Source: a virus. Taken from it: a stretch of 36,081 bases of DNA. The translations under genes and the position numbers were made by a program. Below the pieces are notes generated by a model. It saw only the letters and a list, made by a program, of their open reading frames with translations, did no database searches and was not told the DNA's origin. Below are positions 7,902 through 36,080 of the stretch, one piece after another. The stretch lies in the IMG/VR virus record IMGVR_UViG_3300009703_000049, positions 1 through 36,081 of that record. One strand, given 5' to 3'. Numbering within the stretch: position 1 is the stretch's first letter; each line of letters opens with the position of its first letter.

Positions 7902-8299
7902 TATTCCACCTCTAATATAAATGTAACATCTATTTGGTCACTATTAGAAAAAGGCCCAACACCATCAAAATTAACTCTTGATAACATAGTGCTTTCTGCG
8001 CTATAACTTGTAGTTGTTCTTAATTCATCAAATTGGTCATCTTGTGGGGTCGTTGCACTAAAAATACCAAATTCCCTAATAGTATGTCCTGAAAGTTCAC
8101 TACCTGTAAATGAAACACTAAAATCAATTGTTGTTCTATCTGATACATAGTTAGTAGTTGCTTTATTTGCTGCTAATATAGGCACATCTAATACATTACT
8201 ATCAGGGTTGGTTGAGTCACCACCTGTTCCCACATTCGCTGTCTGAAAGAACTCCTTAATAAAGAGTGCTACCTTTTCCTTTGCTTTTTCTGTTATCAT
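7901..8299 (-). CDS. Baseplate/tail-tip protein (fibre attachment type)
   Basis: 132 aa. The N-terminal helix (ITEKAKEKVALFIKEFF) is followed by beta-rich sequence with the segment TIREFGIF and later MLSRVNFDGVGP and IDVTFILEVE. This REFGIF ... SRVxFD ... arrangement is seen in many small tail proteins encoded between the hub and the fibres; I know no precise function. It overlaps the hub gene upstream (ATGA) and the fibre gene downstream, suggesting stoichiometric production with both. Confidence 0.6.
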   Translation of the reverse strand: MITEKAKEKVALFIKEFFQTANVGTGGDSTNPDSNVLDVPILAANKATTNYVSDRTTIDFSVSFTGSELSGHTIREFGIFSATTPQDDQFDELRTTTSYSAESTMLSRVNFDGVGPFSNSDQIDVTFILEVE

Positions 8300-11200
8300 A
8301 TTAATTCCTCGTCTAATTCCGTAGTAGTATCAACTGTTCCTAATGATGTATTAAACCCAATTGCTGCACCTGTATTAGTCCCACCAGTAACAATAGTATC
8401 AATTGCATAATTAAACCCAATTGTAAATGGGCTATTCGTTTTTGAAGTTTTCCTAATTATAAGTCTTAGTTCCTTTATTCCAAAGTTTTCAAAAAAGTCT
8501 GTAGTATCTGTTTGAGTTTTAAATTTATTTGCTCGCAAGAATGCGGAAGTTTTCTTTTGTAATTGTATAATTTCAGCAAAACGTTCACTAAGACCTTTAT
8601 TATATTTACCAAGAGTTAATTCAAGCATACCATACATAGTATGATTTATTTCTAATACTAAATATTCTCCTTTTATGATTCTATGTTCAGGAAAATCTAA
8701 AGTAATTATATCACCTGATTTAATTAATTCTAACCCTATACCACTACATCTAATTACAATTTTATAATTATCTTCTCCATGTAATTTAAGTAAAGAATTT
8801 GCTCGTTCATTTACTTCTTGTTGAGTAATCAATGTTTCATCAATATCTTCTAATGTCTTTTTTCCTATTTTATTAATAGATTGTCTATTTTTACGTATTG
8901 ATTTAATTCCATCACCATATACAATAATTTCATTAAAAATATCAAACAATGATTCATTACGATTAACTTCTATTATATCAATATCATTTTTAGAATTTAA
9001 AGTAATATCTACATAATCAAAAGTTTCTGTATCTGGTCGTAATGTTATTCCGTTAGGGTTAACTACTATTCTTTTATTTTTTATATTTGCTAATAAATCA
9101 ATAGACCCATATAAATCTATTCCAGTAAAATTAGGAGCAATAAAATATGGAAAAGTAATAGTAGAATCATTATAAGTAACATTTTCATTTTTAAATAAAT
9201 CATTAATTATTTGTTCAGCCTCTTGCCCAATAGTAACAGATGAAGCAATATTAGCAATTTGTGGATTATTAATTTTAGGAGATAGTGAGGTTTTGATAGT
9301 AAATATTTCACCCAAAGACACAATTCCTGCCATTTTTTCAAATTCTTCACTAAAATTTAATGTGCATTTTCTAATAGAAGAGGCGGCACTTTCAACAAAC
9401 ATATTTCTTCTTAATTGTGTAGTCCCATCATTTAGTAATATATCATAAGATTTAGGGTCTTCGAATTTTTTATCCACACCAAATACATCTGAATAACTCC
9501 TAGGAACAATATAATCCATAGAACCATCTCCACCATCCATTTCTACAATAACATACATTGATTGGATTGCCTCATTATATCCATATTTATCTTTTAAAGC
9601 ATATATATTACCTTTTTCCCATAAAGATATATGAGCAATATCACTATACATTTCATCTGAATCTGGTCTTTTTGTATATTTAGAAGTCATTTTATATAAA
9701 TCAATTGAAGTAGGTGTTTTAGGCCATAAACAAGTTTCAGCCGGTTGCATTACTCTATAAAATTGAGATGGTATAAACCCACTCCCACCAAATAATAGTG
9801 GGCCACAATTATCAACAGTTAAATAATGTTTTTGTCCTGTTCCACTAGTTGAAACAGTATGAGAAATAATATAATGCATTTTATTTGGGTGGGTATTTTC
9901 CACTGAAACAGCCGCCGCCTTACCAATATCAACTGTATTACTATAACCCCCTCCTGTTTGTGAATCAACCCATGTTCCTTCAAAACCACCTGAATCAGCA
10001 CTATTCAAAGTATTAGTACCATAAATAAATGATTCAGTACCAACCAAATAACAACCCGTTAAATTAGGGCAAAATCGTAACCAATAATTATCAGAATTAT
10101 TTGTAGCATTATCACTTAAATCAAATTCCCAAGTTTGGATATTACGATTATGTTCGTTAGTGTGGTCATATTTAGTCCCTCCCGTAATTGTTCCTGTTCC
10201 ATCTCCCATATGTAATATTGGTTTTAGAATAAAGTGCTGTCCATCAGCAATTGTATCAGGAGAAGTAGTAGTAATTGTTGTTCCATGAATATCTGTTTCC
10301 ATAAAATTAGCATCCATAGCAGAATAATTATGAACAGCAGACCCATTATGTTTTTTTTGTTCTGTTTCTGTATGAAAAAAAGTCCATTCGTCTGTTCCTC
10401 CGGGATTATCTTTAACAATAGAATTACTAATATCCACAATTGCGCCTAATCCTGCTTGCCATTCCCCTTTATTCTCAATATCGAAACGACCAATATTTAC
10501 TGCTTTACACCCACGATAAACTTCAGGCCCAATAAATCCTTCATGTAATAATAAATTAATAAATGCTGAAGGGTGTAATTTAAGGTGGTTTGTATCTTGT
10601 GCAGTAGTAGTATAAATTGCATTTTGTGTATTTGCTAGTGGGCTACGAAAATCAACATCACTACCCGTTGAAAAGACAGGAGGCATAATAATAGCATCAA
10701 GCCCACTTAAATCAGCAGATATCCCCCAATTATTATCCCAATTTGTTGAAGTTCCACCATTAGGATAATCCCCATTAAGTATTGCTCCTTGAGTCATGGA
10801 TAATCCTTTTGGACTACTTACACTTAAATCACATAAAGAAGATTGTCCCTCTCTTCCGTGTAATTTGGTTGAACGCCATGATGGGTTTGTTGAACCTGCT
10901 TTATTAGTATATGATAATTTATATACTTGCCCAGTATATAATTCACCATCTATCATCTTTACCTTAGAAGTTAATGTAATTGCACTTGTTGTTGCAGAAG
11001 AAACTGTGCCTAAAAATCTCCCATCAGTTGTATATAATCTATCATTAGTATCAAATATATTTCCACCAGCCCCATCGTCATTAGCAGTAGTAATTATATC
11101 TTTATCAGAATTATATTCTGAAGTATTAGCAATATTTACATCATTCCCATAAGCCGTATAAAATGATGTATTTTTTACTGGCATAAATACTGTATAATCA

Positions 11201-14200
11201 AAAGCATCCACCGCATCATTTATTGGGTCAGGCGGAAGTTCAGGGTCAATAGCATTAAAATGCCAATCAAAAGTTAATTCTCTAAGTCGCATTAAACCAC
11301 TTCTTTTTATTTGGTCGCCTGTAATAGACGATTCAATTATATTTAATGTCTCAAATGATTCATCTGTAATAATTTCTCTATTAAATTCACCTAAATATTT
11401 ATGATGTTCAATTCCTGTAGATTCTTTTGTTAATTTTCCTTGAATAACCAAACTATAATCCGTTAAATCTCTAGCACTATATCCTAAATTATGTTGGCGA
11501 GCCATACTATCCGGCCAAATATCACCTCCGGCAAAAATAAACCATCGTAACATTTTAGGGTCTATTATTTCTAAAGAGTCTTTTGCCCTCATAATACTAT
11601 TCTCTTTATATCCTTCTATTCTATCAGTCCCACTAGTTGATGCCCAATCAGAACCATCCCCACCATCACTAGTATCGTAATAATGTGGCATTTTATCTAA
11701 TGCGGGAGTAATAGCATTATTATTATATATTTCAAAATCTTCAAATGCAGAACCATGTGCAGGTAAATTCCCCCTTACTTCATGTGATTTTTGGTTAATT
11801 CTAATTTGTGAAGTTAAACTTTGTCCATAGGGTGAAGCCATACTTGGTAAAAAATTATTTAAATTGACACTACTTCTTCTTTTTCCCCAAATAGATTTAT
11901 ATGCAGTAGCATAAGCGGATATATTTCCTTTATTAGAATGATTTTTATTAGCCCCACTAAATAATGTTTTAATATTAAAATAACTACTACCCAAACCGCT
12001 TTTTTGTAAATCAATATATCTAAATGTGGGCGCACCAAATTGGGCTATATTAGTAACAGTTGTTCCGATTCCTGCATCAATAGTAGCACTTACAGTAGAA
12101 TCATGTTCAAAAGAATATGATATGGGTTTATTAGCACTAGAATAATCTGAATTAACCATATGTAAAATACCACCAAGACCTAAACCTTGAGTATTTAAGA
12201 AATAAATTCCATGATGACTGTCACCTTTAGTTGTTGTGCTAGAAACATATAGTGGTTCATTATCTGCTAATAAGATTGGTAATTCTCTATCAAATAATAC
12301 TTCCCATTCGGTTATTGTAGCAGTAGAAGCAGTATAATCAGAAACCTCTATTCTTTCAACTGTTCCAATATATGTCCCATCTGATTTAAATACTGGTTTG
12401 CCCCTACCTAAATATTCATATATTGTTGCTGGTAAATTAACATTAGTCCCATCAATTAATACTCTTCCAGTATGTCCTTTAGAAATTGCACCTTTAATTA
12501 ACATTCCACTATCAGTTAAAGTTTTAAATCTAGTATCTAATGGGTTATAATCTACTCTTGCTAATATTGCAGGGCAATTAGGTGCTAATTCAATTATTGT
12601 ATTAATTTCTTTAGAATCAATAGATACTATATTAAAATTAGTAATAGAACTAATAGTATTAACTTCAGTATGAGTAACCGATGATGATAACTCATCAGAT
12701 AATCTTGACATAAAAGGTAAAGTGTCTAAAATTGATGAGGGATTATTTATATAATATCCCCTAGCATTACTATCATCAAATCCAGAACTTCCTAATAAAT
12801 TAGCCCCATCAATTTCCGGCGCACCATTATTTCTTGTTAATTTTAACCCAGAAGTAAAAAATAATCCTTTATTGGCTGCTCCCCTTAATGAAGTTATTGT
12901 TTGTGATGCTGATGGGCTACCTTGAATAGACTTACCAAACGAAATATAATCATGGCTAGTTTGTCTAAGTAGTGATGTTCCTGATGTAACAAACAATAAA
13001 GCCCCTTCTTCTAATGTTACTGTTGTGCTTGATACAGATTTTACCCTACCAATAAACGCATAAAAATTAGCAGAACCATCTGATATAAATAACAAATCAC
13101 CCGCAACTATAATGTCAGCATCGGCAGTAGTAATAGTAGTATCTCCCACATTAATATTTGCACTGTTAGTAGTAAGACTACTTGATACGGTTAATGGTAT
13201 TTGTGAAGAATATATCCAATCATCAGAATATTTATAATTTTTATTAACTATTGGCCCCAATAATTTATTAATATCATTCCTCCCATATAATTTATAAATA
13301 AATATACCATTTTCTACTGATTCTTCAATAGTTTCAATAATACCTTTAAATATAATTTTATCAATATAAAAACTACCACTAAAATAATCTAACATATTTG
13401 GATAGTCAAGAGATTCTTTTTGATATATAGTAATTCTAGGTGTATCTAGTTTAACATATCCATTAACTGAATCACCATATTTGATATTTACTCTATGACC
13501 GGAATATTCTCCACCAATTAATACTATTTCTAAATCATTTATTCTAGAATCACTATAATTACTTAATGCACTACCATTATAAGAAATGGCACTAGCGGCC
13601 ACTTCTCTTGAATCAGCGTTTGTGTGGGTTACTTCTGTATCAATATTAAAATCTACTAATAATGTTTCTGTAATTTTACCCCATCGTTGTCTATTAGCAG
13701 TTAGCGCACTAAAAGTAACTTGTATATTACCGGAAGTAAAAGTGGCCTCATCATATTTCCTATAATGGCTTATTGTTAATATTTGTTCTAAAGAATTAGT
13801 AGTGGGATTAAATACTGGGGCAGCAATAGCAGATAATTTATAATAATAATCTCCAATTTTAATTAATTCAAATTCCCCACTTGAATTTTCTAATATGATT
13901 CTTAAATCTTGATTTTCAGATAATGCCGTTGCAGTAATTGTAGTAGTACCTAAAGTTCCACTATAAGTACCAAATAAACTAGCATCAAAATTATTATTAA
14001 TAGAACCTTCTATAATTTTATGTCTAATTTTAATGGGGTCATATTTTTGTATTTTAACTCCCATTATCTTATGAGGGTCAATAATTTTACCCTCAAAATA
14101 TGAACCTGTTTTAGTAATTGATTGAAAAACATTTATATCCATAACTCTAGGAATAAAATTATTTTTAATCGCTGAATCTCCGTAATGAATATACCTTGTA

Positions 14201-15201
14201 GGGCCAGTAAAAGAACCACTTGTTTGTGCTGCAATTTTATTATCAGTTGTGCGGTGAATATTTTTAAAACAAGAATTCCATGCAGTATAAGTATTAGTAT
14301 AGGCTGTTGTATCTGAACCATATAATTCAACTGCTCCATCAGAAGTAGATGGAATATCATTAACCCTATTATTATCTACTAATATTGCAGTTGTAGTATA
14401 TTTACCATAATCAGTAATTTGTAATCCATAATATTGTTCCGTTACAAAATGTGTTAACGCAGTAGTTTGACCAGTACCTGCTTCTCTTGAATAATATAAT
14501 GCATACTTAGTATTATGATTTAATTGGTTATCTTTATCTAATCTATCATTGTAAAAATAAAATAATGGTCTAGCACAATTTGTATAAATATCATGGCGAG
14601 AATCTGACCCATCACCACTTCCTTGCCCCCCATACATAAGAGCAACCACACTAGTATCAGTTAATAGTGGCCCCTTATAGATGGCAAACTTAGTATCTTT
14701 AGCAATTTCACCATTATATTGTGGCTCAAATTCAAATGAATCTCCTGCTACTTCATCTGTAAGGACATTAGTAATTCTAGCAAAATGATGAGATTTATAG
14801 TCATCAGCAAATATCATCACAAAATAATCATTAAGGGCATCTAATGATATTTGTGTTCCGGTTGAAGTTAAATTATCATAACATTTAAGCCTATATCCAG
14901 TAGTATTTTCTAAATTACTCAAATAATCACTTATAGTAGTTGCCCCCCCTACCCCATTAGTAGTATCATCAGGATATTCCCTATTAATTATATCAAAAGA
15001 AGCAGAATAAGATACCCCATTAGTATCTTGACTAGTTAGTGTTGAATTATCATTATGTATTTCATAACAAACAATAGATGCGGTAGCAGTTAAATCATTT
15101 TTTAATATTGGGTTTGTAGGACAATCCCAATTAATATTTTGACTTGCTGCCGCAGGTAAAGTGGCAAAACTACTACCAACAGTTAAAGCATATTGAGTCA
15201 T
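8296..15201 (-). CDS. Giant tail-tip / baseplate hub protein (2301 aa)
   Basis: 2301 aa, by far the largest gene. Most of the length is beta-rich, rich in Thr/Ser/Asn/Asp, with scattered repeats of a ~50-residue module containing DG-x-[FY]-[IL]GTV (about residues 692-745, 928-987 and 1380-1428). The C-terminal ~400 residues change in character: FDIFNEIIVYGDG near residue 2080, then KSGDIITLDFPEHRI and LELTLGKYNKGLSERF near 2190-2210. That resembles the hub fold of T4 gp27 / Mu gp44-type tail proteins. The protein probably forms the tail tip with the hub at its C-terminus and long decorations or receptor-binding arms before it. Position after tape measure and two tail proteins supports this. 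Confidence 0.72.
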   Translation of the reverse strand: MTQYALTVGSSFATLPAAASQNINWDCPTNPILKNDLTATASIVCYEIHNDNSTLTSQDTNGVSYSASFDIINREYPDDTTNGVGGATTISDYLSNLENTTGYRLKCYDNLTSTGTQISLDALNDYFVMIFADDYKSHHFARITNVLTDEVAGDSFEFEPQYNGEIAKDTKFAIYKGPLLTDTSVVALMYGGQGSGDGSDSRHDIYTNCARPLFYFYNDRLDKDNQLNHNTKYALYYSREAGTGQTTALTHFVTEQYYGLQITDYGKYTTTAILVDNNRVNDIPSTSDGAVELYGSDTTAYTNTYTAWNSCFKNIHRTTDNKIAAQTSGSFTGPTRYIHYGDSAIKNNFIPRVMDINVFQSITKTGSYFEGKIIDPHKIMGVKIQKYDPIKIRHKIIEGSINNNFDASLFGTYSGTLGTTTITATALSENQDLRIILENSSGEFELIKIGDYYYKLSAIAAPVFNPTTNSLEQILTISHYRKYDEATFTSGNIQVTFSALTANRQRWGKITETLLVDFNIDTEVTHTNADSREVAASAISYNGSALSNYSDSRINDLEIVLIGGEYSGHRVNIKYGDSVNGYVKLDTPRITIYQKESLDYPNMLDYFSGSFYIDKIIFKGIIETIEESVENGIFIYKLYGRNDINKLLGPIVNKNYKYSDDWIYSSQIPLTVSSSLTTNSANINVGDTTITTADADIIVAGDLLFISDGSANFYAFIGRVKSVSSTTVTLEEGALLFVTSGTSLLRQTSHDYISFGKSIQGSPSASQTITSLRGAANKGLFFTSGLKLTRNNGAPEIDGANLLGSSGFDDSNARGYYINNPSSILDTLPFMSRLSDELSSSVTHTEVNTISSITNFNIVSIDSKEINTIIELAPNCPAILARVDYNPLDTRFKTLTDSGMLIKGAISKGHTGRVLIDGTNVNLPATIYEYLGRGKPVFKSDGTYIGTVERIEVSDYTASTATITEWEVLFDRELPILLADNEPLYVSSTTTKGDSHHGIYFLNTQGLGLGGILHMVNSDYSSANKPISYSFEHDSTVSATIDAGIGTTVTNIAQFGAPTFRYIDLQKSGLGSSYFNIKTLFSGANKNHSNKGNISAYATAYKSIWGKRRSSVNLNNFLPSMASPYGQSLTSQIRINQKSHEVRGNLPAHGSAFEDFEIYNNNAITPALDKMPHYYDTSDGGDGSDWASTSGTDRIEGYKENSIMRAKDSLEIIDPKMLRWFIFAGGDIWPDSMARQHNLGYSARDLTDYSLVIQGKLTKESTGIEHHKYLGEFNREIITDESFETLNIIESSITGDQIKRSGLMRLRELTFDWHFNAIDPELPPDPINDAVDAFDYTVFMPVKNTSFYTAYGNDVNIANTSEYNSDKDIITTANDDGAGGNIFDTNDRLYTTDGRFLGTVSSATTSAITLTSKVKMIDGELYTGQVYKLSYTNKAGSTNPSWRSTKLHGREGQSSLCDLSVSSPKGLSMTQGAILNGDYPNGGTSTNWDNNWGISADLSGLDAIIMPPVFSTGSDVDFRSPLANTQNAIYTTTAQDTNHLKLHPSAFINLLLHEGFIGPEVYRGCKAVNIGRFDIENKGEWQAGLGAIVDISNSIVKDNPGGTDEWTFFHTETEQKKHNGSAVHNYSAMDANFMETDIHGTTITTTSPDTIADGQHFILKPILHMGDGTGTITGGTKYDHTNEHNRNIQTWEFDLSDNATNNSDNYWLRFCPNLTGCYLVGTESFIYGTNTLNSADSGGFEGTWVDSQTGGGYSNTVDIGKAAAVSVENTHPNKMHYIISHTVSTSGTGQKHYLTVDNCGPLLFGGSGFIPSQFYRVMQPAETCLWPKTPTSIDLYKMTSKYTKRPDSDEMYSDIAHISLWEKGNIYALKDKYGYNEAIQSMYVIVEMDGGDGSMDYIVPRSYSDVFGVDKKFEDPKSYDILLNDGTTQLRRNMFVESAASSIRKCTLNFSEEFEKMAGIVSLGEIFTIKTSLSPKINNPQIANIASSVTIGQEAEQIINDLFKNENVTYNDSTITFPYFIAPNFTGIDLYGSIDLLANIKNKRIVVNPNGITLRPDTETFDYVDITLNSKNDIDIIEVNRNESLFDIFNEIIVYGDGIKSIRKNRQSINKIGKKTLEDIDETLITQQEVNERANSLLKLHGEDNYKIVIRCSGIGLELIKSGDIITLDFPEHRIIKGEYLVLEINHTMYGMLELTLGKYNKGLSERFAEIIQLQKKTSAFLRANKFKTQTDTTDFFENFGIKELRLIIRKTSKTNSPFTIGFNYAIDTIVTGGTNTGAAIGFNTSLGTVDTTTELDEELI

Positions 15202-22163: not shown

Positions 22164-23261
22164 TCACTCAATTAAGAATATAGTTTCTTTCATATTGTCA
22201 AGTATTTCTTTAGATTCTGCCTTAAGTAAATCATATTTACTCTTAATATCAATTTGTGCGCCGGTATCAGCAATTAATACTGTTGAATCATCATGCCTTA
22301 GTATTTCACACGCAGTAAGTTTAGTAGCCGCATCAGTAATAATACCCGGAACTCTATAACTACCTGCCATATAAGTAACTTTAACTGATTGTCTTTCTAA
22401 ATAGGGGAAATTCTTTCTAAAGAAAACCTTACCATCAGATTCAATCATCCAAAAATCACCAAGACGGCGCATTTCTTCTCTATCAGTAAAATCTATTTTA
22501 GATAATCCTGAACCACTAATATCAATTTCACTATTTACACCATCTTCTCCTACTAATAATGAAGAAATAACAACCTTAGCAGAATTACCTTCATAATCTA
22601 CCGTAGCATAAAAATAGTCTGAAATATTAACAGCACTTGCGCCATCTTGTAATGATTTTGCAGCAGTAGCACCTGTTATGTTTGCAGTTTTTGCAGGATA
22701 TGTTTCATTAATTAATGCCACTAATTCTTCAGCAGCAGTTTTATTACCATAAGTAGAATTAAATGTTGAATCAGTAGCACCAGCAGTTAAAGTAAATACT
22801 CTTGATGTTCCCGACCATCCCGGAACTCTTAATGTTATAGAAGTTACATTAGTATAATCATTAATAGTAACAGAAGCAGTTGCAGATGCTAAATCAGTCC
22901 AAGAATTACCCTGCCAAACTTCTAACCTAATCATTTTCCTAATATATGGAGAATGTAGTTGAATAAATCCAACATAATCATTCCAATATAAAGGGTAATT
23001 TAATAATATTCCACTAAAATTAAAATTGTGTACTTCATTTATATAAAGAACTGGTCGCCAAGAATTATCTGTAATTTCATCAATATAATCTTCTGTCCTT
23101 TTAATAAATTGCCCCACTTGTGCATGGGTTGGGTTTGTGCTTGCACCAAAGGTAGGTATTTGTAATAAATCAGCCACTAATGTAGAATTGGTATAATATC
23201 CTTGTCCCGTAGCATAATTAGGGGCAATCGCAGTATAGTCAGATGGTGAGGAATATTTCAT
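22164..23261 (-). CDS. Head-tail connector / adaptor protein (HK97 gp6-like)
   Basis: 365 aa. The N-terminus LVADLLQIPTFGASTNPTHA, then FIKRTEDYIDEITDNSWR, is the helical start of head-completion adaptors (helices with 'T..QV...I..A...I...T...W'). The C-terminal part (VKVTYMAGSYRVPGIITDAA, then a helical end) is also typical. Between them is an inserted beta-rich region (~130-270: TNVTSITLRVPGWSG...) not found in short members. The protein should form the ring below the portal. Starts ATGA-overlapped with its upstream neighbour. Confidence 0.72.
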   Translation of the reverse strand: MKYSSPSDYTAIAPNYATGQGYYTNSTLVADLLQIPTFGASTNPTHAQVGQFIKRTEDYIDEITDNSWRPVLYINEVHNFNFSGILLNYPLYWNDYVGFIQLHSPYIRKMIRLEVWQGNSWTDLASATASVTINDYTNVTSITLRVPGWSGTSRVFTLTAGATDSTFNSTYGNKTAAEELVALINETYPAKTANITGATAAKSLQDGASAVNISDYFYATVDYEGNSAKVVISSLLVGEDGVNSEIDISGSGLSKIDFTDREEMRRLGDFWMIESDGKVFFRKNFPYLERQSVKVTYMAGSYRVPGIITDAATKLTACEILRHDDSTVLIADTGAQIDIKSKYDLLKAESKEILDNMKETIFLIE

Positions 23262-24349
23262 GTTAACGACCTTATAGCACTTTCTAATTTTTTAATGTTT
23301 GCTTGGATTTTTTCAATTAAATCAACTCTATATGTAAGAATTATATTTTGTGATGCTTGTGTTTCAGGAACACTAGGAACTGGTAAATCACCTATAGGTT
23401 TTCTAGTAAATGCTCTTGGTTCAAATGATTCAGATGAAATAGGAATATTAATTACTTTACTGGTAGTTTTACCTTTTATATTATAAAATAAAGTAATATC
23501 TTTTTTTGCTTCTTTACCCCCTTTTGTTAAATAATTAATTTCTGCATTACTTGTAAGAAGAAAACTAGTAACATATTTAGGATTTAATATTGCGTGATTA
23601 TTACTATCACTTTTAATACTTTCATAAATTAGTTTTTTAATATCATGGTCTAAAGTTTTATTTTGCCTTCCTTGTAATATGTCCATCGGTTTAAATTTTA
23701 TTTTCCCTTCTAAATTAAAATTATTATTCATTTTTTCATATTCAGGCTGATTAACCCCTAATGCTTTTAATTCATCTTCATTATCTTGCTTAGTTTCATT
23801 ATAATTCATATTAATATCAAAACTAATTGTTAATTCTTTTGGGTTATCAGTAAAATTATTAATTATATCACCATCAATAGGTGTTAAAAACTCTTCAAAT
23901 GATTGAATATATGTATCATCCATAATTTTTTTTGCACTTCTTCTAGTTTCTGAAGTACCAATAGGTTGCATTTTAAATTCTCTTAATTTATCTCCCATTT
24001 CATTTAATATAATATCTTCATAATTACCTAATCTTTGTCCTTTAGTATATTCCATATCTTTTAATGCTTTTTTAAGTGAAGTCTCTTTTATTTGTGTTAA
24101 TTGATTTAAAAATATTTGTTTAGCCTCATTAACATTATCTTCATAATTTTCATCTACTTTATTAGGGAAATCTCTAATTTCTTCTGGTAAATTAATTACA
24201 TCACCTAAATTTCTTCTATTAATTCGTGTATCTTTACCACCCCATACACTACCTACAACATATCTCATCATATCAGTATAAATGGTTCCCTCATTATCTG
24301 ATAGGTCAATTGACCCTTTAGAAGCAGGAAACCAAATATAATATGTCAT
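23258..24349 (-). CDS. Hypothetical neck-region protein (363 aa)
   Basis: I choose ATG 24349 because it forms an ATGA overlap with the previous stop; a GTG at 24358 is possible. Mainly charged and helical over residues ~60-190 (NEAKQIFLNQLTQIKET...), then a mixed beta region (LTISFDINMNYN, KDITLFYNIKGKTTSK) and a proline-containing stretch (IGDLPVPSVPETQAS) before a last helix. No family recognised. Its place between the MVFG protein and the adaptor suggests a virion or assembly protein. Confidence 0.6.
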   Translation of the reverse strand: MTYYIWFPASKGSIDLSDNEGTIYTDMMRYVVGSVWGGKDTRINRRNLGDVINLPEEIRDFPNKVDENYEDNVNEAKQIFLNQLTQIKETSLKKALKDMEYTKGQRLGNYEDIILNEMGDKLREFKMQPIGTSETRRSAKKIMDDTYIQSFEEFLTPIDGDIINNFTDNPKELTISFDINMNYNETKQDNEDELKALGVNQPEYEKMNNNFNLEGKIKFKPMDILQGRQNKTLDHDIKKLIYESIKSDSNNHAILNPKYVTSFLLTSNAEINYLTKGGKEAKKDITLFYNIKGKTTSKVINIPISSESFEPRAFTRKPIGDLPVPSVPETQASQNIILTYRVDLIEKIQANIKKLESAIRSLT

Positions 24350-24999
24350 GCCAGCCACTTAGCCCATGCCGCAACTTTACCTATATTTTGTGCTAAATGT
24401 ACTCCACCCGTAGGAGCAGTATAAGTCATTTGTCCGTTTTGTGGGTCTATCCAATATGGATTATTCATTTGGTCATACCCTACGGGTGGAACAGGATAAC
24501 CTGATTGATTAGCAAAAGAACCCGCAGGTTGGCCCTGTGGAGCCACCATTGTTTGCATTTGCGGTTGAGTCTGCCCAACCATATTTCCACCGCTTGAGGG
24601 AGCGAATCCTTGCGATTCTAAATACTGTTGTTTAGCCATTTTTCGCTGTAAAACCACTTCTTCATTTAGAGCAGTACCTAACATTTTTTGAATATCTAAA
24701 TCAATGTTTTCTTGAGTAATAGATTCATATTCTTTAAGTACACCATCAACTAACTTAATATGCCCGGAAGTAGTTTCTGTTCTAAATTCTAATTTAACTA
24801 ACATTTGGGACATTACTCTTTCCACTACATCTTCTATAAGTTTTTCAAATGTTATTAAAAATGCTTCACCATGATATTGTAAAAATTCTTCAACATGATT
24901 ATCCTGTAAAGTTAATAAATTATTAACTGTTTTAAAATTCTGTTGTTGTGTGTCCTGCACAGCCCTAAAGACCGTTCTATTACTCGTTCCAAAAACCAT
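24346..24999 (-). CDS. Hypothetical protein with MVFG N-terminus and Pro/Gln/Gly-rich C-terminus (217 aa)
   Basis: Starts MVFGTSNRTVFRAVQDTQQQ. Residues 1-130 are amphipathic helices (LIEDVVERVMSQMLVKLEF). Residues ~135-200 are low complexity, rich in Gln, Pro, Gly and Met with PxGQP and PPVGYDQMNNPYWID segments, probably disordered, before a short final helix (IGKVAAWAKWLA) that is amphipathic and could touch a membrane. TAATG overlap with the zinc protein upstream. Part of the gene group around the GTPase; function unknown. Confidence 0.6.
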   Translation of the reverse strand: MVFGTSNRTVFRAVQDTQQQNFKTVNNLLTLQDNHVEEFLQYHGEAFLITFEKLIEDVVERVMSQMLVKLEFRTETTSGHIKLVDGVLKEYESITQENIDLDIQKMLGTALNEEVVLQRKMAKQQYLESQGFAPSSGGNMVGQTQPQMQTMVAPQGQPAGSFANQSGYPVPPVGYDQMNNPYWIDPQNGQMTYTAPTGGVHLAQNIGKVAAWAKWLA

Positions 25000-25616
25000 T
25001 ATTCATCCACCAAACCTATTAAATTTTCTATTTGTTTCATTTTACCTTGCATTTCAGCCATTAACCTAATATATTGTTCTTTAGGCGTTTCTTTTGTGCC
25101 TTTAGGGGGTTCAATAACCCACCCTGCTGAAATTAAGGAAGTCATATCTATTTGGTTTAAATCTGTTAATGGCCCCTTTCTAAATGTTGGGACTTTTGCT
25201 CTAGGTAAAAATGCTCTAAATTCTAAACCATGTTCTTCTGCTAAAATTTGTTGTTCAAGCATTTCCATTTGTTTAAATATTCCTGCGTGTTTAGGACAAT
25301 ATGTTCCTCTTAATGGCCTACCTTTAGTTACTTCTGTTAATGGCATTCCGGGCCGCATTGGGTCAGATATTTCCCATTGTTGTTGTGAACCACAAACAAC
25401 GCATCTATGTTGAAGATTAAATTTATAACCATACTTAAATATAAATTTCTTTTTCTCCGGTAATAATACTTTACGAATTTCTTTTAATTGTTTTTTAGGT
25501 TTAAGTTCTCTAAACTCATATGGAATAATTGGCCCTGCGGCCCTGCCCATTTCTTTATTTGAACCAAATGAATTGGTTTGGGCAGTACTAATCATATTTG
25601 GATTAAAGCCTAACAT
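24999..25616 (-). CDS. Zinc-binding hypothetical protein (205 aa)
   Basis: C72-x2-C75 (RCVVCGSQQQW) and C107-x2-H110 (TYCPKH), 31 residues apart, form a probable treble-clef-like zinc site. The N-terminus (MLGFNPNMISTAQTNSFGSN) is disordered-looking, then a basic stretch (LKPKKQLKEIRKV). The C-terminal ~35 residues form a helix (QYIRLMAEMQGKMKQIENLI) that may be a coiled coil. It shares TAATG with the GTPase stop, so the two are likely produced together; a GTPase partner is an obvious but untested idea. Confidence 0.62.
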   Translation of the reverse strand: MLGFNPNMISTAQTNSFGSNKEMGRAAGPIIPYEFRELKPKKQLKEIRKVLLPEKKKFIFKYGYKFNLQHRCVVCGSQQQWEISDPMRPGMPLTEVTKGRPLRGTYCPKHAGIFKQMEMLEQQILAEEHGLEFRAFLPRAKVPTFRKGPLTDLNQIDMTSLISAGWVIEPPKGTKETPKEQYIRLMAEMQGKMKQIENLIGLVDE

Positions 25617-26284
25617 TAATAATCATCCACCATTGTTAATACTCCTCTATATACCATTTCCGGGTCTGATTTTGCACTTATTATATATTTGAAGGTTGGT
25701 ATTCCCCGTTCTTGTAATTTTTGCATTCCATATCTGAACGGTTCAAAGATTGGGTGTTTGTCAATTGAGTGGTATTCATGTTTTTTCCCCCATATATCAA
25801 ATTTATTTGCCCATAATCCTATTGCTATTGGATATTCCCTATTTTTTTTCTTTTTTAATTTTTTCCCATCTCGCCAATAATCATCACAAATTAAGTCCAC
25901 TAAATATTGCCATGCTAATTGATTTTGTAAATTTGCAGGATTTTCTAAATGTCTATTGTCAATCATAAATAATATATATTTAACTTTTCTTTTTCTCATA
26001 TCTTTCTTCCAAAGATTCCAATATTGTGATTCTCCACCAACATCTGATGTTCTTACTGTATGTGCATTTCCATCCATTTTAACAAACTTTCTTAATGGTT
26101 TATGTAATCCCACTGTTCTTTCTGTTATTTCTTGTACTTCGCCTCTAGTTCTTAATTGTTGATGAAGAGTTGTTTTTCCAACTTTACTTGCTCCATATAT
26201 TCCAAAATTAATTGAATGTACTCTTTTATATATTGTTGCTAATCCTTCAACACAAATAATTGCAAATCCTGCGAGAACAGACAC
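25616..26284 (-). CDS. Arf-like small GTPase with hydrophobic N-terminus
   Basis: 222 aa from GTG 26284. All five G motifs are present in order: G1 GASKVGKTT (G31-T39), G2 T57 in RTVGL, G3 DVGGE (D81-E85), G4 NKFD (160-163), G5 SAK (203-205). The DVGG form, the TVG switch I and the following NLWKKDM ... ILFMIDNRHLENP are the pattern of the Arf/Sar family rather than of translational or Era-like GTPases. Glutamate stands at the position of the catalytic Gln (Arf Q71, Ras Q61), which predicts slow GTP hydrolysis. A lysine-rich insert (GKKLKKKKNRE) precedes G4. Residues ~3-18 are hydrophobic (VLAGFAIICVEGLATI) and could anchor it in the membrane, like the amphipathic helix of Arf. It lies between two membrane-protein genes and a zinc-protein gene in the virion operon. 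Confidence 0.85.
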   Translation of the reverse strand: MSVLAGFAIICVEGLATIYKRVHSINFGIYGASKVGKTTLHQQLRTRGEVQEITERTVGLHKPLRKFVKMDGNAHTVRTSDVGGESQYWNLWKKDMRKRKVKYILFMIDNRHLENPANLQNQLAWQYLVDLICDDYWRDGKKLKKKKNREYPIAIGLWANKFDIWGKKHEYHSIDKHPIFEPFRYGMQKLQERGIPTFKYIISAKSDPEMVYRGVLTMVDDY

Positions 26285-26290
26285 ATAACA

Positions 26291-26500
26291 TCACATCATT
26301 TCAAATAAATATCCTATTGCAGAAAACATACTCCCAAAAAAATTAACTCCAAATACTCCTAAAATATTACCAACTAATACTCCTGCCGTAGTAGCAGTAA
26401 TAGCCCAAAACCACGCTCTAACTTTAATAAACCAAACATCGGCTGAATGCGCCCTTTGCAGGTCGTAAGCCATTGCTGTTTCATCAAAACCAAATACCAT
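26291..26500 (-). CDS. Small membrane protein with MVFG N-terminus (69 aa)
   Basis: Begins MVFGFDETAMAYDLQRAHSA, then a hydrophobic half with two closely spaced helices (about 26-47: IKVRAWFWAITATTAGVLVG; 48-67: ILGVFGVNFFGSMFSAIGYL), many Gly and Phe. A helical hairpin of this kind can insert in a membrane; it also resembles small holins, but there is no lysis enzyme nearby. Directly upstream of the GTPase gene (6 nt) with a GTGAT site before its own start. Confidence 0.65.
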   Translation of the reverse strand: MVFGFDETAMAYDLQRAHSADVWFIKVRAWFWAITATTAGVLVGNILGVFGVNFFGSMFSAIGYLFEMM

Positions 26501-26505
26501 TTATA

Positions 26506-26889
26506 TCACGGTTCAATAGAGGCCAAAAATTCATTAGGAACCTCTTGTTCTTCATATGTTTGAGGATATGTACCCATAGGTCTATATTGATTAGATGATT
26601 GTCTAATCTTTTCACGTTGTTGTTCTTCACGCTGTTTCTTTTGCCAATATATGTCAATTTTTCGGTCAAGTAGCCATAATTCCATTCTATCATTCATAAC
26701 CAAATCAAAAACTGCTTTAATGCCCATAATAGCACCAACAGTTAATAGGCCAAATAATACTGCATGACTTAATGCAGTCCAAGGTAATTGATAACCATAA
26801 TTAGAATAAAAATATACATTAGCACCACTAACAGTACCAACAAATAAAATTGTCATAATTAATCGTGTGTCTTTATTTAATGAAGCCAT
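26506..26889 (-). CDS. Membrane protein with two helices and a charged C-terminal tail (127 aa)
   Basis: Transmembrane helices at ~10-28 (LIMTILFVGTVSGANVYFY) and ~38-62 (TALSHAVLFGLLTVGAIMGI), then a long charged amphipathic helix (DRKIDIYWQKKQREEQQREK) and a Pro/Tyr-containing tail. Predicted topology has both ends on the same side. First gene of the three-gene membrane/GTPase group in transcription order. It could recruit the GTPase or anchor a virion component; no homologue recognised. Confidence 0.65.
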   Translation of the reverse strand: MASLNKDTRLIMTILFVGTVSGANVYFYSNYGYQLPWTALSHAVLFGLLTVGAIMGIKAVFDLVMNDRMELWLLDRKIDIYWQKKQREEQQREKIRQSSNQYRPMGTYPQTYEEQEVPNEFLASIEP

Positions 26890-27937: not shown

Positions 27938-29323
27938 TCACTTGATGTTAGTAATTTTACCTTGACCCTTAAAGAATGAACAACCAATTTCACCCATTGT
28001 TCGGAACATAGCCTTGTTTCCAAGAGTACCAACACCGAATGGGTTTCCATGATTAATACCATCCTCAAAGTATTGGGTAGGTTTTAGCGTTGCAAACCAC
28101 AAATGGTCTGTATCTAAGAATAACATATCAGAAACACCTGTTGTCAATGTATCGTGTGTAGTAGTTGGCATATCTTTACAGGGGATTAATGGAATATCCA
28201 TATAAGTTGCAACTCTAAATCCAACCTCTTGACCCTTAACTCCTTTAACTCCACCATGAGTAGGAATAATCTCTTTTCCATCAATATATCGTTCTTGTGC
28301 TTGCAATAAATCTGCAATTGCTTGAACAGTATCAAAACCAGTTAGAATAACCTTTGGGGTTCCACCATTGGTTCGCAATGATTGAATTAAACTATTTAAA
28401 ATGCTTAATGTCAATGTTCTTTGTTCTGTTGAAGCATATCCATCTCCCAAATTAACTTCTGCATCTATATATCCAACACTTGAACCCATTGCTGTTGAAG
28501 CCTGTCTGTCAGTATTACCATATATTGAAGCAATATCTGTTGAAGCACCTGCACCATTAGCAGAAGCAATAATGTTTTGTGTTGCTAATTCGTGAATTTC
28601 AGCACTTGTTGAAATAACCTTATGTAATGAAGTATAATTACGCTCCATATCTGCATAAGTTTGAAGTCCTGTTGGCCCTGCTGAACCACCACTATCAAGG
28701 TCATAATTCTCTAATGGCATTACTAACATTTTAGATTGAACCTCAGCGTGTACTTTACCCATATCCTCACGAACAATGGCTCTCAAATCACCGATACCAT
28801 CGTCAATTTTTGCCATTTCCGCCGCTAACTCGCTGTACTCAAATTGATGTGCAACTGTTTTTGGGGACATAAATAGTGTTGAATATTCTGGTGCTACTGA
28901 TTGAAGCCCTGTTGAATCCAAAGCATGATTTTCTTGAACACCACCGATTTCGTCTGCATGGGGTGTATCTAATGCACTCCCTGCTGTATATGGAGCAGTA
29001 CCAATACCAAATGCAGCATTTGAACCACCTAATGGTCTTTTAGTCATAACTCTCCAACCGCTTTGTGTATATTGCCTCTTTGGTAATACACTCAATGGGT
29101 TAATTTCTTGATTAATCATTGACCAAACTTTTTGCCCATATATTTTGTTGTAAAGAGCCGATAGGTTTGGCCCTGCTGTTCCATTTAGTCCAATTGCTGA
29201 ATCGTGGCCTGTTACTAGACCACCAACCAAACCTGCTCCTTTAAGCAATTGATTACCACCAACGGGGCTTAATCCGTAGGTTCTTGCTTCCAAATCTTTT
29301 ATCGTATTAATATATTGTGTCAT
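27938..29323 (-). CDS. Major capsid protein (HK97 fold)
   Basis: 461 aa. After a ~50-residue Gly-rich N-terminus come a helix (LSALYNKIYGQKVWSMINQE), an E-loop-like region with RPLGGSN and TAPYTAGSA, FMSPKTVAHQFEYSELAAE (entry to the long spine helix), and a C-terminal half with KVILTGFDTVQAIADLLQAQ, VATYMDIPLIP and DMLFLDTDHLWFATLKP. This order, with 'D-T-x-x-x-x-L' and 'G-x-P-[VL]-x-x' elements in the A and P domains, is that of HK97-type capsid proteins. It follows the protease-scaffold by 2 bp and has a strong AGGTGAATAAAT leader. It should form the icosahedral shell. Confidence 0.85.
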   Translation of the reverse strand: MTQYINTIKDLEARTYGLSPVGGNQLLKGAGLVGGLVTGHDSAIGLNGTAGPNLSALYNKIYGQKVWSMINQEINPLSVLPKRQYTQSGWRVMTKRPLGGSNAAFGIGTAPYTAGSALDTPHADEIGGVQENHALDSTGLQSVAPEYSTLFMSPKTVAHQFEYSELAAEMAKIDDGIGDLRAIVREDMGKVHAEVQSKMLVMPLENYDLDSGGSAGPTGLQTYADMERNYTSLHKVISTSAEIHELATQNIIASANGAGASTDIASIYGNTDRQASTAMGSSVGYIDAEVNLGDGYASTEQRTLTLSILNSLIQSLRTNGGTPKVILTGFDTVQAIADLLQAQERYIDGKEIIPTHGGVKGVKGQEVGFRVATYMDIPLIPCKDMPTTTHDTLTTGVSDMLFLDTDHLWFATLKPTQYFEDGINHGNPFGVGTLGNKAMFRTMGEIGCSFFKGQGKITNIK

Positions 29324-29325
29324 AT

Positions 29326-30489
29326 TTATTCACCTGCCAATCTCTTTATTTCTGCATCCAATTCACCCCAAGACATTTTAGCAATATCTTCTGATGATGG
29401 AATCTGTAATTCTTCAACAACTTGTTGTTGTTTAGTAATTGTATTGTCTTTATTATCTTGTAAATAAGTTAATAGTTCGCTAAATTGTTTCTTCAATTCA
29501 GTAACTTCTGATTGTGCATCATAATTACCTTTTGCAATTTCAGCATTCTTGACTGTTATTTCAGAATCAAGCCGCTTTTGGAAAGTATCTGTTAGATTAT
29601 CATATGCCATCTTTTCAAGTTTTTCTGCCTTGAATTGTTCATATGCTTTTTCCAAAGTACTTTCGGACAAATCTAATGTATTTACATTAAATCCTTTTAC
29701 TACTGTAATTTGGTCATGTTGATTTTTAGGATTTCCACCTTCAACAATAACTTCACCTGCTTCACCTGCTTCAACTTGTCCTGTTGGTAAATCAGTATCA
29801 GACATTTCAACACTATCATCATATTCTTGAGTTGATTCCTCTAACTCTTCTTCTTGAAGTTCTAATTCCTCAGTACTTTCATCATCTGTTTCCATATATT
29901 CTGTCATATTTTCACCACATTTATTCATTAATTCATTTAATTCTTCTATTGCTTTTTCAAGTTTACTCATTTTCTTTTCATCCATTTTTAGTATATCAAA
30001 TCTTGCTTCTGGATTAATCCCCTTTTCACAAATTGTTATTTCATGGAGTTCTAATTTTGATATTTCGTTATATTCACCGTGTTCTTTATGGCTTTTCTTT
30101 ACTTTTTGTAATGCTTGTCCACCGATACTAAAACTCCTTAATGTTCCTTTTCTAATATCTCTTGAAACCTCTTTGGCTTTTTCTATATCATCTCTAAGTT
30201 TAATTACTACAAAAAATCCAACATCATCAACTTCGGTTTTCCATAATTTACCTTTTGAATCTCTATATTCTTTAACTACTTCACCGACTTGTACGTTTGA
30301 ATGATTAGTCATTACATTTCTGTATTTTGGATTTCTAATGAATTTTTTAGTTGCTTCGTCTAATGCCTTTAATGTAATTAAATCATTTTGTTTATCTACT
30401 ATTTCTAATGATGCATAACCTGCTATATGTAAATCATCCGACTTAATTATAATAAACTCATGTTGCTTATCGTCTATTACTGCTGACAC
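29326..30489 (-). CDS. Prohead protease fused to scaffold, with KMSW C-terminal tag
   Basis: 387 aa from GTG 30489 with GGTGGTGGG upstream. Residues 1-168 match HK97-type prohead proteases: AGYASLEIVDKQNDLI, NVMTNHSN with H63, LRSFSIGG with S121, and LHEITICEKGINPEA with E150. Residues ~170-360 are a very acidic, then coiled-coil region (scaffold). The last 23 residues read SSEDIAKMSWGELDAEIKR plus LAGE, nearly the same as the end of the 73-aa protein at 33624-33845. In fused protease-scaffolds the C-terminus usually binds the capsid protein, so this tag is the likely shell-binding helix. The gene is directly upstream of the major capsid gene. Confidence 0.85.
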   Translation of the reverse strand: MSAVIDDKQHEFIIIKSDDLHIAGYASLEIVDKQNDLITLKALDEATKKFIRNPKYRNVMTNHSNVQVGEVVKEYRDSKGKLWKTEVDDVGFFVVIKLRDDIEKAKEVSRDIRKGTLRSFSIGGQALQKVKKSHKEHGEYNEISKLELHEITICEKGINPEARFDILKMDEKKMSKLEKAIEELNELMNKCGENMTEYMETDDESTEELELQEEELEESTQEYDDSVEMSDTDLPTGQVEAGEAGEVIVEGGNPKNQHDQITVVKGFNVNTLDLSESTLEKAYEQFKAEKLEKMAYDNLTDTFQKRLDSEITVKNAEIAKGNYDAQSEVTELKKQFSELLTYLQDNKDNTITKQQQVVEELQIPSSEDIAKMSWGELDAEIKRLAGE

Positions 30490-33369: not shown

Positions 33370-33621
33370 TCACCTATACTTTTCTAATGCTGCATCAACA
33401 AATTTTTGTCTATTATCATCATCTAAACGCCCCCAAAATTCTTGGAATCCCGCTTGATACCTTGCTATCCATTCTTGGTCATAACCACCATAAACTTCAC
33501 CAAATAACATTTCTACTAGGTCTGCGGGAGCAGTATTATTAAAATACCACATTACCCTATTCACTATACTAACTTCATTACTTGTTTTAATTATTTCATC
33601 TAACTGTTTTCTAATTTCCAT
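33370..33621 (-). CDS. Small protein with IRKQLDE N-terminal tag (83 aa)
   Basis: I choose ATG 33621: GAGGG lies 5-6 nt before it, while ATG 33627 would touch that site. From 33621 the protein begins MEIRKQLDEIIKTSN, matching the MDIRKQLDELIIKEN start of the gene at 34394. The rest is helical with many aromatics (RVMWYFNNTAPADLVEMLF, YQAGFQEFWGRLDDDNRQKF) and looks like a compact folded domain. Function unknown. The shared N-terminus suggests a common targeting or binding signal. Confidence 0.65.
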   Translation of the reverse strand: MEIRKQLDEIIKTSNEVSIVNRVMWYFNNTAPADLVEMLFGEVYGGYDQEWIARYQAGFQEFWGRLDDDNRQKFVDAALEKYR

Positions 33622-33623
33622 TT

Positions 33624-33845
33624 TCATCCCTCAATTTTTTTAACCATTTCATTTAAATCATTCCAAGACATTTTGGATATATCATCCGGTAATCCATCAT
33701 TATTTACTGATAATGATGGTCTTGGTGTATTCATCTTAACATAACCCGACTTCATTAATATATTGTCATTGTTATATACTGTTTCTTCTAAAGTCTTAAT
33801 TTTCTCAACTAAGACCTTCAATATTTCTATTACTTCTTCTGTCAT
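33624..33845 (-). CDS. Small coiled-coil protein with KMSW C-terminal tag (73 aa)
   Basis: N-terminal ~25 residues form a probable coiled coil (EVIEILKVLVEKIKTLEETV), a flexible linker follows, and the end is LPDDISKMSWNDLNEMVKKI plus EG. That last segment aligns with the C-terminus of the protease-scaffold (DI-x-KMSW-x-[ED]-L ... K-x-x-x-G). A strong AGGTGAATAAAT leader precedes ATG 33845. It looks like a small adaptor or minor scaffold that binds the same partner as the main scaffold, probably the capsid shell; this is inference. Confidence 0.68.
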   Translation of the reverse strand: MTEEVIEILKVLVEKIKTLEETVYNNDNILMKSGYVKMNTPRPSLSVNNDGLPDDISKMSWNDLNEMVKKIEG

Positions 33846-33878: not shown

Positions 33879-34053
33879 TTATTTTTTCTTATGATATTTC
33901 ATTTCACTATCTCTATTAGAACGGAATAATTCATCCCACGAAAAAAAACGGCATATTACCACCATTATCAACAAATTCCCTATACTCTTGTTTCCGTTTT
34001 CTAATTGACATCATTTTCCTATCTTCATTTTTTATTATATCTTCCCAACTCAT
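33879..34053 (-). pseudogene. Small SW-motif gene broken by a +1 frameshift at T8
   Basis: ATG 34053 is in a proper ATGA overlap with the previous stop and has GGTGA 6 nt upstream. It begins MSWEDIIKNEDRKMMSIRKR and stops after 40 aa at TGA 33933-33931, just past a run of eight T (plus-strand A8 at 33941-33948). In the +1 frame the chain continues from the run as SWDELFRSNRDSEMKYHKKK to TAA 33881-33879. Because this continuation again carries the SW-[ED]-[DE]-L motif, I read both parts as one gene of about 60 aa. The cause could be a natural frameshift, a programmed shift at the homopolymer or a sequencing error. Confidence 0.55.
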
Positions 34054-34394
34054 CTCAAATCACCCTTTTTACTAGGATATACTGTTGAGCGCAATTGCTC
34101 ATATAGTAATTCATAAGTCTTTCTTAATTTTGCAGCAGTAGCCACAATATCAGTATTGGATTCTGAAAAGGTTTTCATTTTCTTATTTAATGTTTTATCT
34201 GCCTTTACTAACTTTAACTCTTTCATCATATCAATAAGTTCGCCCAACTTAGTAAAGTCTTGACCAAAATATTCAGAAGGTTCTGCGGCTTGTAAAGTCT
34301 TTTTAAATGCCTTACGCTGTTTCTTATCTAAATCTTCTAAAAGAGGGGCATTCTCTTTTATGATTAATTCATCTAATTGTTTTCTAATATCCAT
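34050..34394 (-). CDS. Helical protein with IRKQLDE N-terminal tag (114 aa)
   Basis: Begins MDIRKQLDELIIKEN, the same N-terminal tag as the 83-aa protein at 33621 and the protein at the right edge. After it, a helical, lysine-rich protein (LEDLDKKQRKAFKKTLQAAE, IDMMKELKLVKADKTLNKK) with a last helix LRKTYELLYEQL and a basic end. No hydrophobic membrane part, no cysteines. GAGAGGA site upstream. Could be an internal or scaffold-associated protein; function unknown. Confidence 0.65.
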   Translation of the reverse strand: MDIRKQLDELIIKENAPLLEDLDKKQRKAFKKTLQAAEPSEYFGQDFTKLGELIDMMKELKLVKADKTLNKKMKTFSESNTDIVATAAKLRKTYELLYEQLRSTVYPSKKGDLR

Positions 34395-35556: not shown

Positions 35557-35766
35557 TCACCACACATAATGGTCTTTCTTTCTTTGTTTTCTTGGTTTAT
35601 GAATAATACCGGGAATTGGTTTAATATCTTTAATTACATTTTCCTTTTGTTTAGGAGAATTAGGCATCAAATTTCTATTAGGTTCTACCTTCTTACTCAT
35701 TACTTTATTGTTAGCAGCAACTAATTGCCGCTTTTTATTCATTATATCTTCCATTGTTTCGCTCAT
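35557..35766 (-). CDS. Small basic hypothetical protein (69 aa)
   Basis: Starts at ATG 35766 in a TAATG overlap with the upstream gene, with CAGGTGA before it. N-terminal helix MSETMEDIMNKKRQLVAANN, then a Lys/Pro-rich unstructured tail ending RKQRKKDHYVW. Likely nucleic-acid binding or an extended assembly peptide; no homologue recognised. Confidence 0.55.
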   Translation of the reverse strand: MSETMEDIMNKKRQLVAANNKVMSKKVEPNRNLMPNSPKQKENVIKDIKPIPGIIHKPRKQRKKDHYVW

Positions 35767-36080
35767 TATTCATCACCTGCCATTGCACCTACTATTGTAC
35801 CTAAAACTTTTTCTTCATTAGGTTTCTCGTTTCTTTTAGCCCACGCATCAAGTTTATCTCTTCCAACATTGCTAATATCTCCTTCACGGTCGGGAATAAT
35901 AGCCACATTAATTTCATCCAATATTCTTTCAAGTTTCAAATGAAAATCTGCATCTAATTGTCCTACCTCTACTAAAGAATTTATCTTATCAAAAATAACA
36001 TCTGCCGCTTTATTTACTTCTCTCATTTGATTGCCTCTTAAAGTTCCTTTTCGCTTTAATACATCTAATTGTTTTCTTAT
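35766..36080 (-). CDS. Hypothetical helical protein with IRKQLD tag, 5' end outside window
   Basis: The frame stays open to the window edge: before the internal ATG at 36026 it encodes IRKQLDVLKRKGTLRGNQ, so the true start is beyond 36081. This upstream stretch is the same IRKQLD tag found at the N-termini of the proteins starting at 33621 and 34394, which argues that the start lies only one or two residues further. The rest is helical (VNKAADVIFDKINSLVEVGQ, LKLERILDEINVAI) with an acidic/Gly C-terminus. Function unknown. Confidence 0.65.
   Translation of the reverse strand: MRKQLDVLKRKGTLRGNQMREVNKAADVIFDKINSLVEVGQLDADFHLKLERILDEINVAIIPDREGDISNVGRDKLDAWAKRNEKPNEEKVLGTIVGAMAGDE

Follow-up and report, generated by a model that had tools for sequence, protein, structure and literature searches.

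The described proteins closest to the one considered here are the Arf and Arl GTPases (Arf6, Arl1 and Arf1, with the Asgard protein ArfR), the SRP receptor beta subunit (SRbeta) and, among viruses, the Rab- and Ras-like GTPases of pithoviruses, mimiviruses and their relatives. Arf proteins are switches of membrane traffic in eukaryotic cells. The Arf/Arl proteins give the best structural alignments to the viral protein (Z 18.9-17.3); they have in common with it a DxGG[EQ] switch II, a TVG in switch I (in clade I, the group to which our protein belongs) and a helix directly before the G domain. The viral protein differs from them in falling under the Pfam Arf cut-off, in having no Gly2 for myristoylation and in carrying a more hydrophobic N-terminal helix; one of its subgroups has DxAGQ, subfamilies II and III have an inserted switch I, and it is encoded by tailed viruses, within a fixed cassette. 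SRbeta also presents an Arf-like G domain straight after an N-terminal hydrophobic helix; here again the viral protein is under the Pfam cut-off, and its cassette has no SRalpha partner. The giant-virus proteins are likewise virus-encoded and have the closest fold among the BFVD models listed, but identity is about 10-20% among the matches listed, the hosts are eukaryotes, and the linkage to a conserved morphogenesis cassette is a finding on the marine viral family.

The GTPase fold is already known; what appears to be new is to find it in tailed viruses as a core late gene whose membrane partners are fixed. The GTPase has no match in PHROGs, and tblastn of INPHARED with three GTPase subfamilies gave no credible match. 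No tailed virus is among the BFVD matches listed, where the viral models are GTPases of eukaryotic giant viruses.

A small GTPase in a late operon

The gene lies at 25616..26284 on the minus strand of the window (the whole stretch of DNA analysed, 36,081 nucleotides) and encodes 222 aa from a GTG start at 26284; the plus strand of the same interval has many stops. Conservation of residues 2, 6 and 7 (S/T, G and F) across 189 full-length relatives makes the GTG start credible. The product consists of a hydrophobic N-terminal helix (predicted at residues 2-22) and a G domain (24-222) with a lysine-rich loop at about 141-147. The original prediction, made from the letters alone, had described a complete G1-G5 motif set, a hydrophobic N-terminus and a place in a tailed-virus morphogenesis operon, and this description holds throughout: G31ASKVGKTT39, T57VG59, D81VGGE85, W89NLWKKD95, N160KFD163 and S203AK205 are present in that order; residues 1-19 are hydrophobic; and the co-directional neighbours include a prohead protease (29326..30489, minus; PF04586, E 3e-9), a major capsid protein of SU10 type (27938..29323, minus; PF17236, E 4e-7; phrog_24667, E 7e-19), a tail tube and a tape measure. 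At the end of the tail module stands a 2301-aa protein (8296-15201, minus) with no Pfam match.

The nucleotide-binding motifs are kept in all the relatives examined: GxxxxGKTT and NKxD occur in 224 of 224 distinct full-length homologues, and DxGG in 203, the inspected examples of the remaining 21 having DxAGQ. Lys37, Thr38, Asp81, Asn160, Lys161 and Asp163 are invariant over subfamilies of about 30% identity. The gene is under purifying selection (dN/dS between neighbours 0.17, 0.13 and 0.04), and its product has the highest median identity of the module (60.9% vs 57.7% for the capsid protein). A chance ORF is ruled out by the invariant motifs in the 224 homologues together with dN/dS; a packaging ATPase or kinase is ruled out by NKxD and SAK, by profile and by fold. 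The window gene encodes a genuine Ras-superfamily small GTPase with its nucleotide-binding motifs intact.

Within the superfamily, the window protein just passes the Pfam cut-off for Ras (21.9 bits vs 21.6) and misses that for Arf (PF00025; 19.7 vs 22.3). Its match to SRPRB is weak (14.7 vs 25), and weak SRPRB matches are found in 16 of 21 members; Roc and MMR_HSR1 are other weak matches. TIGR00231 (small_GTP) matches all 21 members tested, at best with 5e-7, yet under the NCBI cut-off. When the distant subfamilies are included, the profile finds the solved GTP-binding protein 8oun (E 6e-6) and Ras (1e-4); it has no meaningful match to other families, the RecA matches being to the P-loop only. 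The best PDB profile match among small GTPases, 8oun, is a companion entry of the Asgard ArfR structures 8ouk and 8oum.

An AlphaFold2 model built from 74 diverse sequences (pLDDT 87.1, pTM 0.84) aligns best, in VIA-align, with Arf6, Arl1, Arf1 and their relatives (Z 18.9-17.7 over about 160 residues, mostly at 2.2-2.5 A); next come SRP receptor beta (2fh5_B, 17.7), G-alpha (17.6) and Asgard ArfR (17.3), and further down an Asgard RagA-like protein (17.2), Sar1 (17.2) and Rab5 (17.1). The top 31 alignments are all with Arf/Arl proteins or Arf fusions, and SRbeta, G-alpha, Rag, Sar1 and Rab follow within 1-2 Z units. Foldseek gives its best E-value to Rab6, and its E-value order mixes Rab and Arl13. 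A first model, built from 21 close sequences (pLDDT 69), was poor in its P-loop and switch region, and its Foldseek order, with G-alpha at the head, was discarded.

The term ‘Arf-like’, as the original prediction used it, therefore stands in one sense and not in another. Arf and Arl lead, by a small margin, the structural matches among solved chains, the best structural and profile matches do not go to a packaging ATPase, a kinase or another such P-loop family, and an Arf-like fold is a fair reading of the model. Membership of the Arf family is not established, because the protein scores below the Pfam Arf cut-off and lacks Gly2 (188 of 189 clade I members have Ser or Thr there); the subgroup with Ras-type DxAGQ and the presence of rivals within 1-2 Z units count against it as well. 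The Arf lead is consistent but small.

Position 85 was originally read as evidence of a slow switch, or of one that needs an activator, as Glu is found there in place of the usual catalytic Gln. This reading is now weak. Among the 203 DxGG homologues, as counted from metagenomic contigs, the residue is E in 134, Q in 64, H in 3 and D in 2; the tree, which joins two long branches, needs at least 7-8 E/Q changes (8 in all, 7 of them forced by well-supported branches). Glu85 is thus a recurrent alternative and no lineage-defining defect, and because E and Q interchange repeatedly it is weak evidence of slow catalysis.

The N-terminal helix recalls SRbeta. Over the first 18 residues the family mean Eisenberg hydrophobicity is 0.62 and the moment 0.20, with K/R next at 20-21; by these values the helix of clade I is transmembrane-like, not amphipathic, and the N-terminus is hydrophobic in subfamilies II and III too. 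Going by sequence, it resembles an SRbeta-like membrane-inserted anchor, with a cytoplasmic G domain, more than the amphipathic helix of Arf. One residue, Glu13, is odd for a plain transmembrane segment and is conserved in 186 of 189 clade I members; it may pair with another membrane protein.

The cassette and its distribution

The gene singled out by the original prediction is one member of a larger conserved cassette, all of it on the minus strand. A two-TM hairpin protein (TM127; 26506..26889, 127 aa), with a long charged C-terminal tail as judged from hydropathy, is followed by a small single-TM protein (26291..26500, 69 aa) that lies between it and the GTPase. On the other side of the GTPase are a zinc-finger-like protein (24999..25616, 205 aa) with CxxC and CPxH (C-x2-C ... 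C-P-x-H) and no Pfam match, and a helical, low-complexity protein (24346..24999, 217 aa). Downstream of the cassette comes a 365-aa protein (22164..23261, minus), a candidate for head completion or the neck.

A scan of IMG/VR with the window protein found 150 relatives, of which 80 were kept. All 80 loci, as far as their contigs reach, present the same series: capsid protein, three small genes, 2-TM protein, GTPase, zinc protein, 217-aa protein. The 2-TM protein is present in all clade I loci, and a small ORF occupies the place of the 69-aa protein in 77 of the 80, mostly with a RAHSAD motif. A scan with the capsid protein, which is not conditioned on the GTPase, found the GTPase in all clade I contigs with enough downstream sequence. 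The original prediction had proposed looking for the gene at the same place in related contigs, and it is there in all that are long enough to tell.

Pattern and profile scans located subfamilies II and III (about 30% identity) in other marine viral contigs. Their order (80 loci) is 2-TM protein, 1-TM protein, GTPase, zinc protein, helical protein, 2-TM protein, TerS-like protein and, in brackets as it were, TerL. Profile comparison joins the GTPase of clade I to those of II and III (E 1e-70), and likewise the zinc protein (100%, E 1e-50) and the helical protein (94%, E 1e-6 to 1e-7). The membrane proteins are positional equivalents only: TM127 has no significant profile match to the TM2 protein of II/III, and profile comparison finds no homology between the 69-aa protein and the 1-TM protein of II/III (73-104 aa). 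The terminase (TerL) was used as a sample unbiased toward the GTPase. In 38 of 39 TerL loci with full flanks the GTPase is within 10 kb, and in the 39th it is just beyond, in the same record, which makes 39/39; in four more TerL records with no GTPase match, TerL is <=1.3 kb from the contig end on the cassette's side.

The cassette has no single address. Clade I has it downstream of the capsid gene; in II/III it is about 20 kb upstream of the capsid gene and upstream of TerL; the internal order is kept despite this change of place relative to the head genes. That the GTPase and zinc protein are homologous over such distant groups, despite the moved cassette, points to a functional unit independent of the neighbouring head genes. 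Two sister loci (L231 and L244), whose capsid protein is about 45% identical, have one gene of 598-599 aa (L231 4529-6325; L244 12366-14165) where the cassette stands in the window clade; the cassette may have another place in those viruses, or else its function is dispensable.

Other features of these loci may be recorded. An HMG-CoA lyase-like gene (PF00682, E 3e-18) lies near the cassette in L289 (8089-9042) and in 21 other II/III loci. In the window, three unrelated ORFs (33370-33627, 34050-34394 and 35766-36080, minus) have a common N-terminal peptide, IRKQLDxLI/K; many ORFs start with F..AW..LK in L289 and L282, and with W..ILK in L231 and L244. Such peptides, common to unrelated ORFs, could be a targeting or packaging tag on proteins of the virion module. 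One record, IMGVR_UViG_3300021958_000021 (184,733 bp), contains two different GTPase loci (L016 and L038) and probably joins two viruses in one assembly.

Viruses and probable host

The window also carries a PD-(D/E)XK nuclease, an ERCC4 nuclease and an ATP-dependent DNA ligase; its opposite strand holds a module of replication type. Among the related records (80-115 kb), 18 of 23 have PolB and 21 of 23 have Cpn60, and TFIIB is over the cut-off in two. These traits were compared with published accounts (PMC10768690, PMC12999244, PMC10160649) of the Magrovirales of Poseidoniales (Aoguangviridae and Apasviridae). The likeness extends to genome size, PolB (split in clade I), chaperonin, DNA ligase, ERCC4 nuclease and the opposition of replication and morphogenesis modules; the difference is that the descriptions examined, which cover the magrovirus literature in part, mention no GTPase, and an earlier GTPase annotation is possible. 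Most clade I records (G001-G010, from the records of L006 to L056) have PolB as two separate pieces; a split PolB is implied by a figure legend on Aoguangviridae (PMC10768690). Going by published descriptions, the viruses appear to fit the magroviruses, and by the same analogy the host is probably among the archaeal Poseidoniales.

Five Druskaviridae records (100-111 kb) have no GTPase, in a search with 23 magrovirus-like positives. Their capsid protein and protease are related, as is the 365-aa protein, which also occurs in L231 and L244, the sister loci without the GTPase.

A host gene picked up in bacteria was also considered and rejected, the sole genome-contig matches being two plainly viral contigs of a Maricaulis MAG. 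These two (L082 and L083) are magrovirus-like, and probably represent viral sequence that was mis-binned into a bacterial reference genome.

Assembly, egress and other possible roles

One way to understand a cassette that moves as a block, with its internal order kept, is to suppose that its products act together; a functional complex at the cytoplasmic membrane is the simplest reading. We give a probability of about 0.5 to the proposal that the protein is a membrane-anchored, Arf/SRbeta-like GTP switch, the core of a late cassette, serving virion assembly or egress. That is, the N-terminal helix would tether the GTPase to the host cytoplasmic membrane; the small membrane proteins would prepare membrane patches; GTP binding would switch the GTPase to a state that draws the zinc and helical proteins to the prepared patches; finally, GTP hydrolysis would release or remodel the assembly. 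The step served would most likely be a late one: virion assembly linked to the membrane or, with a slight preference, remodelling of the membrane for egress. Membrane remodelling or egress had been suggested from the GTPase alone; the adjoining small membrane proteins, absent from that account, strengthen the suggestion.

Egress is slightly favoured for several reasons. In phages, terminase genes often have lysis genes alongside, and the cassette adjoins terminase genes in II/III. Its neighbours are small membrane proteins of holin-like size. Archaea are generally without peptidoglycan, so that holin-endolysin lysis is not expected to function in them, and as of 2015 the isolated archaeal viruses had yielded no identified holin gene (PMC4456609). 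There is evidence on the other side. Glu13 would sit awkwardly in a simple anchor, TM127 and the 69-aa protein seem to be equivalent to the II/III proteins in position only, the sister loci L231 and L244 have a single gene at the cassette's place, and the cassette is no recognisable lysis module. The most specific form of the proposal must be more tentative: the Arf-like GTPase and the small membrane proteins might constitute a dedicated GTP-driven membrane-remodelling machine, for egress or for assembly at the membrane, which would be the first GTPase-based system of this kind in a tailed virus.

A second perspective makes the GTPase, zinc and membrane proteins virion components, carried inside the particle or on its surface and used at entry; they might, for instance, dock the genome or the ejection apparatus onto the host membrane. 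Head and tail genes surround the gene, which in clade I lies between those for capsid and neck, and its conservation is as strong as that of structural genes. However, the place of the cassette relative to the capsid and terminase genes differs between virus groups, and the Druskaviridae have the related capsid protein, protease and 365-aa protein without the GTPase; we regard a virion role as rather unlikely, though still a serious rival and more probable than the alternatives that follow.

The protein might instead be directed at the host, as a switch that imitates a host small GTPase, or competes with one, and diverts membrane, signalling or defence functions of the host, with no part in assembly. 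Its Ras-superfamily fold is compatible with this, and so are the closest viral models, the Rab- and Ras-like GTPases of eukaryotic giant viruses. That the gene stays linked to one set of virus-specific partners, even between very distant viruses, makes the idea an unlikely one, and PADLOC gave no match; a defence protein was rejected on the same result.

In phage T4, head initiation is membrane-linked, and a membrane-bound GTPase might similarly nucleate, or quality-check, prohead or packaging complexes. The cassette does adjoin capsid genes in clade I, and a zinc or TerS-like gene and TerL in II/III; but related tailed viruses build similar heads without a GTPase, and a head-assembly chaperone is accordingly improbable. 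Finally, that the domain is a degenerate P-loop serving as a structural scaffold, as Glu at position 85 in most clade I members could suggest, is scarcely credible given the six invariant residues of the nucleotide-binding motifs and the recurrence of Gln at that position.

A membrane-anchored GTP switch serving assembly or egress would bear on a wider problem. The exit of archaeal tailed viruses from their cells is largely unexplained, the endolysin-holin route not being expected where there is no peptidoglycan (PMC4456609). The GTPase cassette is a concrete, testable candidate for the membrane step in very abundant marine viruses, and it adds an Arf/SRbeta-like protein from the archaeal virosphere to the question of where such GTPases originated.
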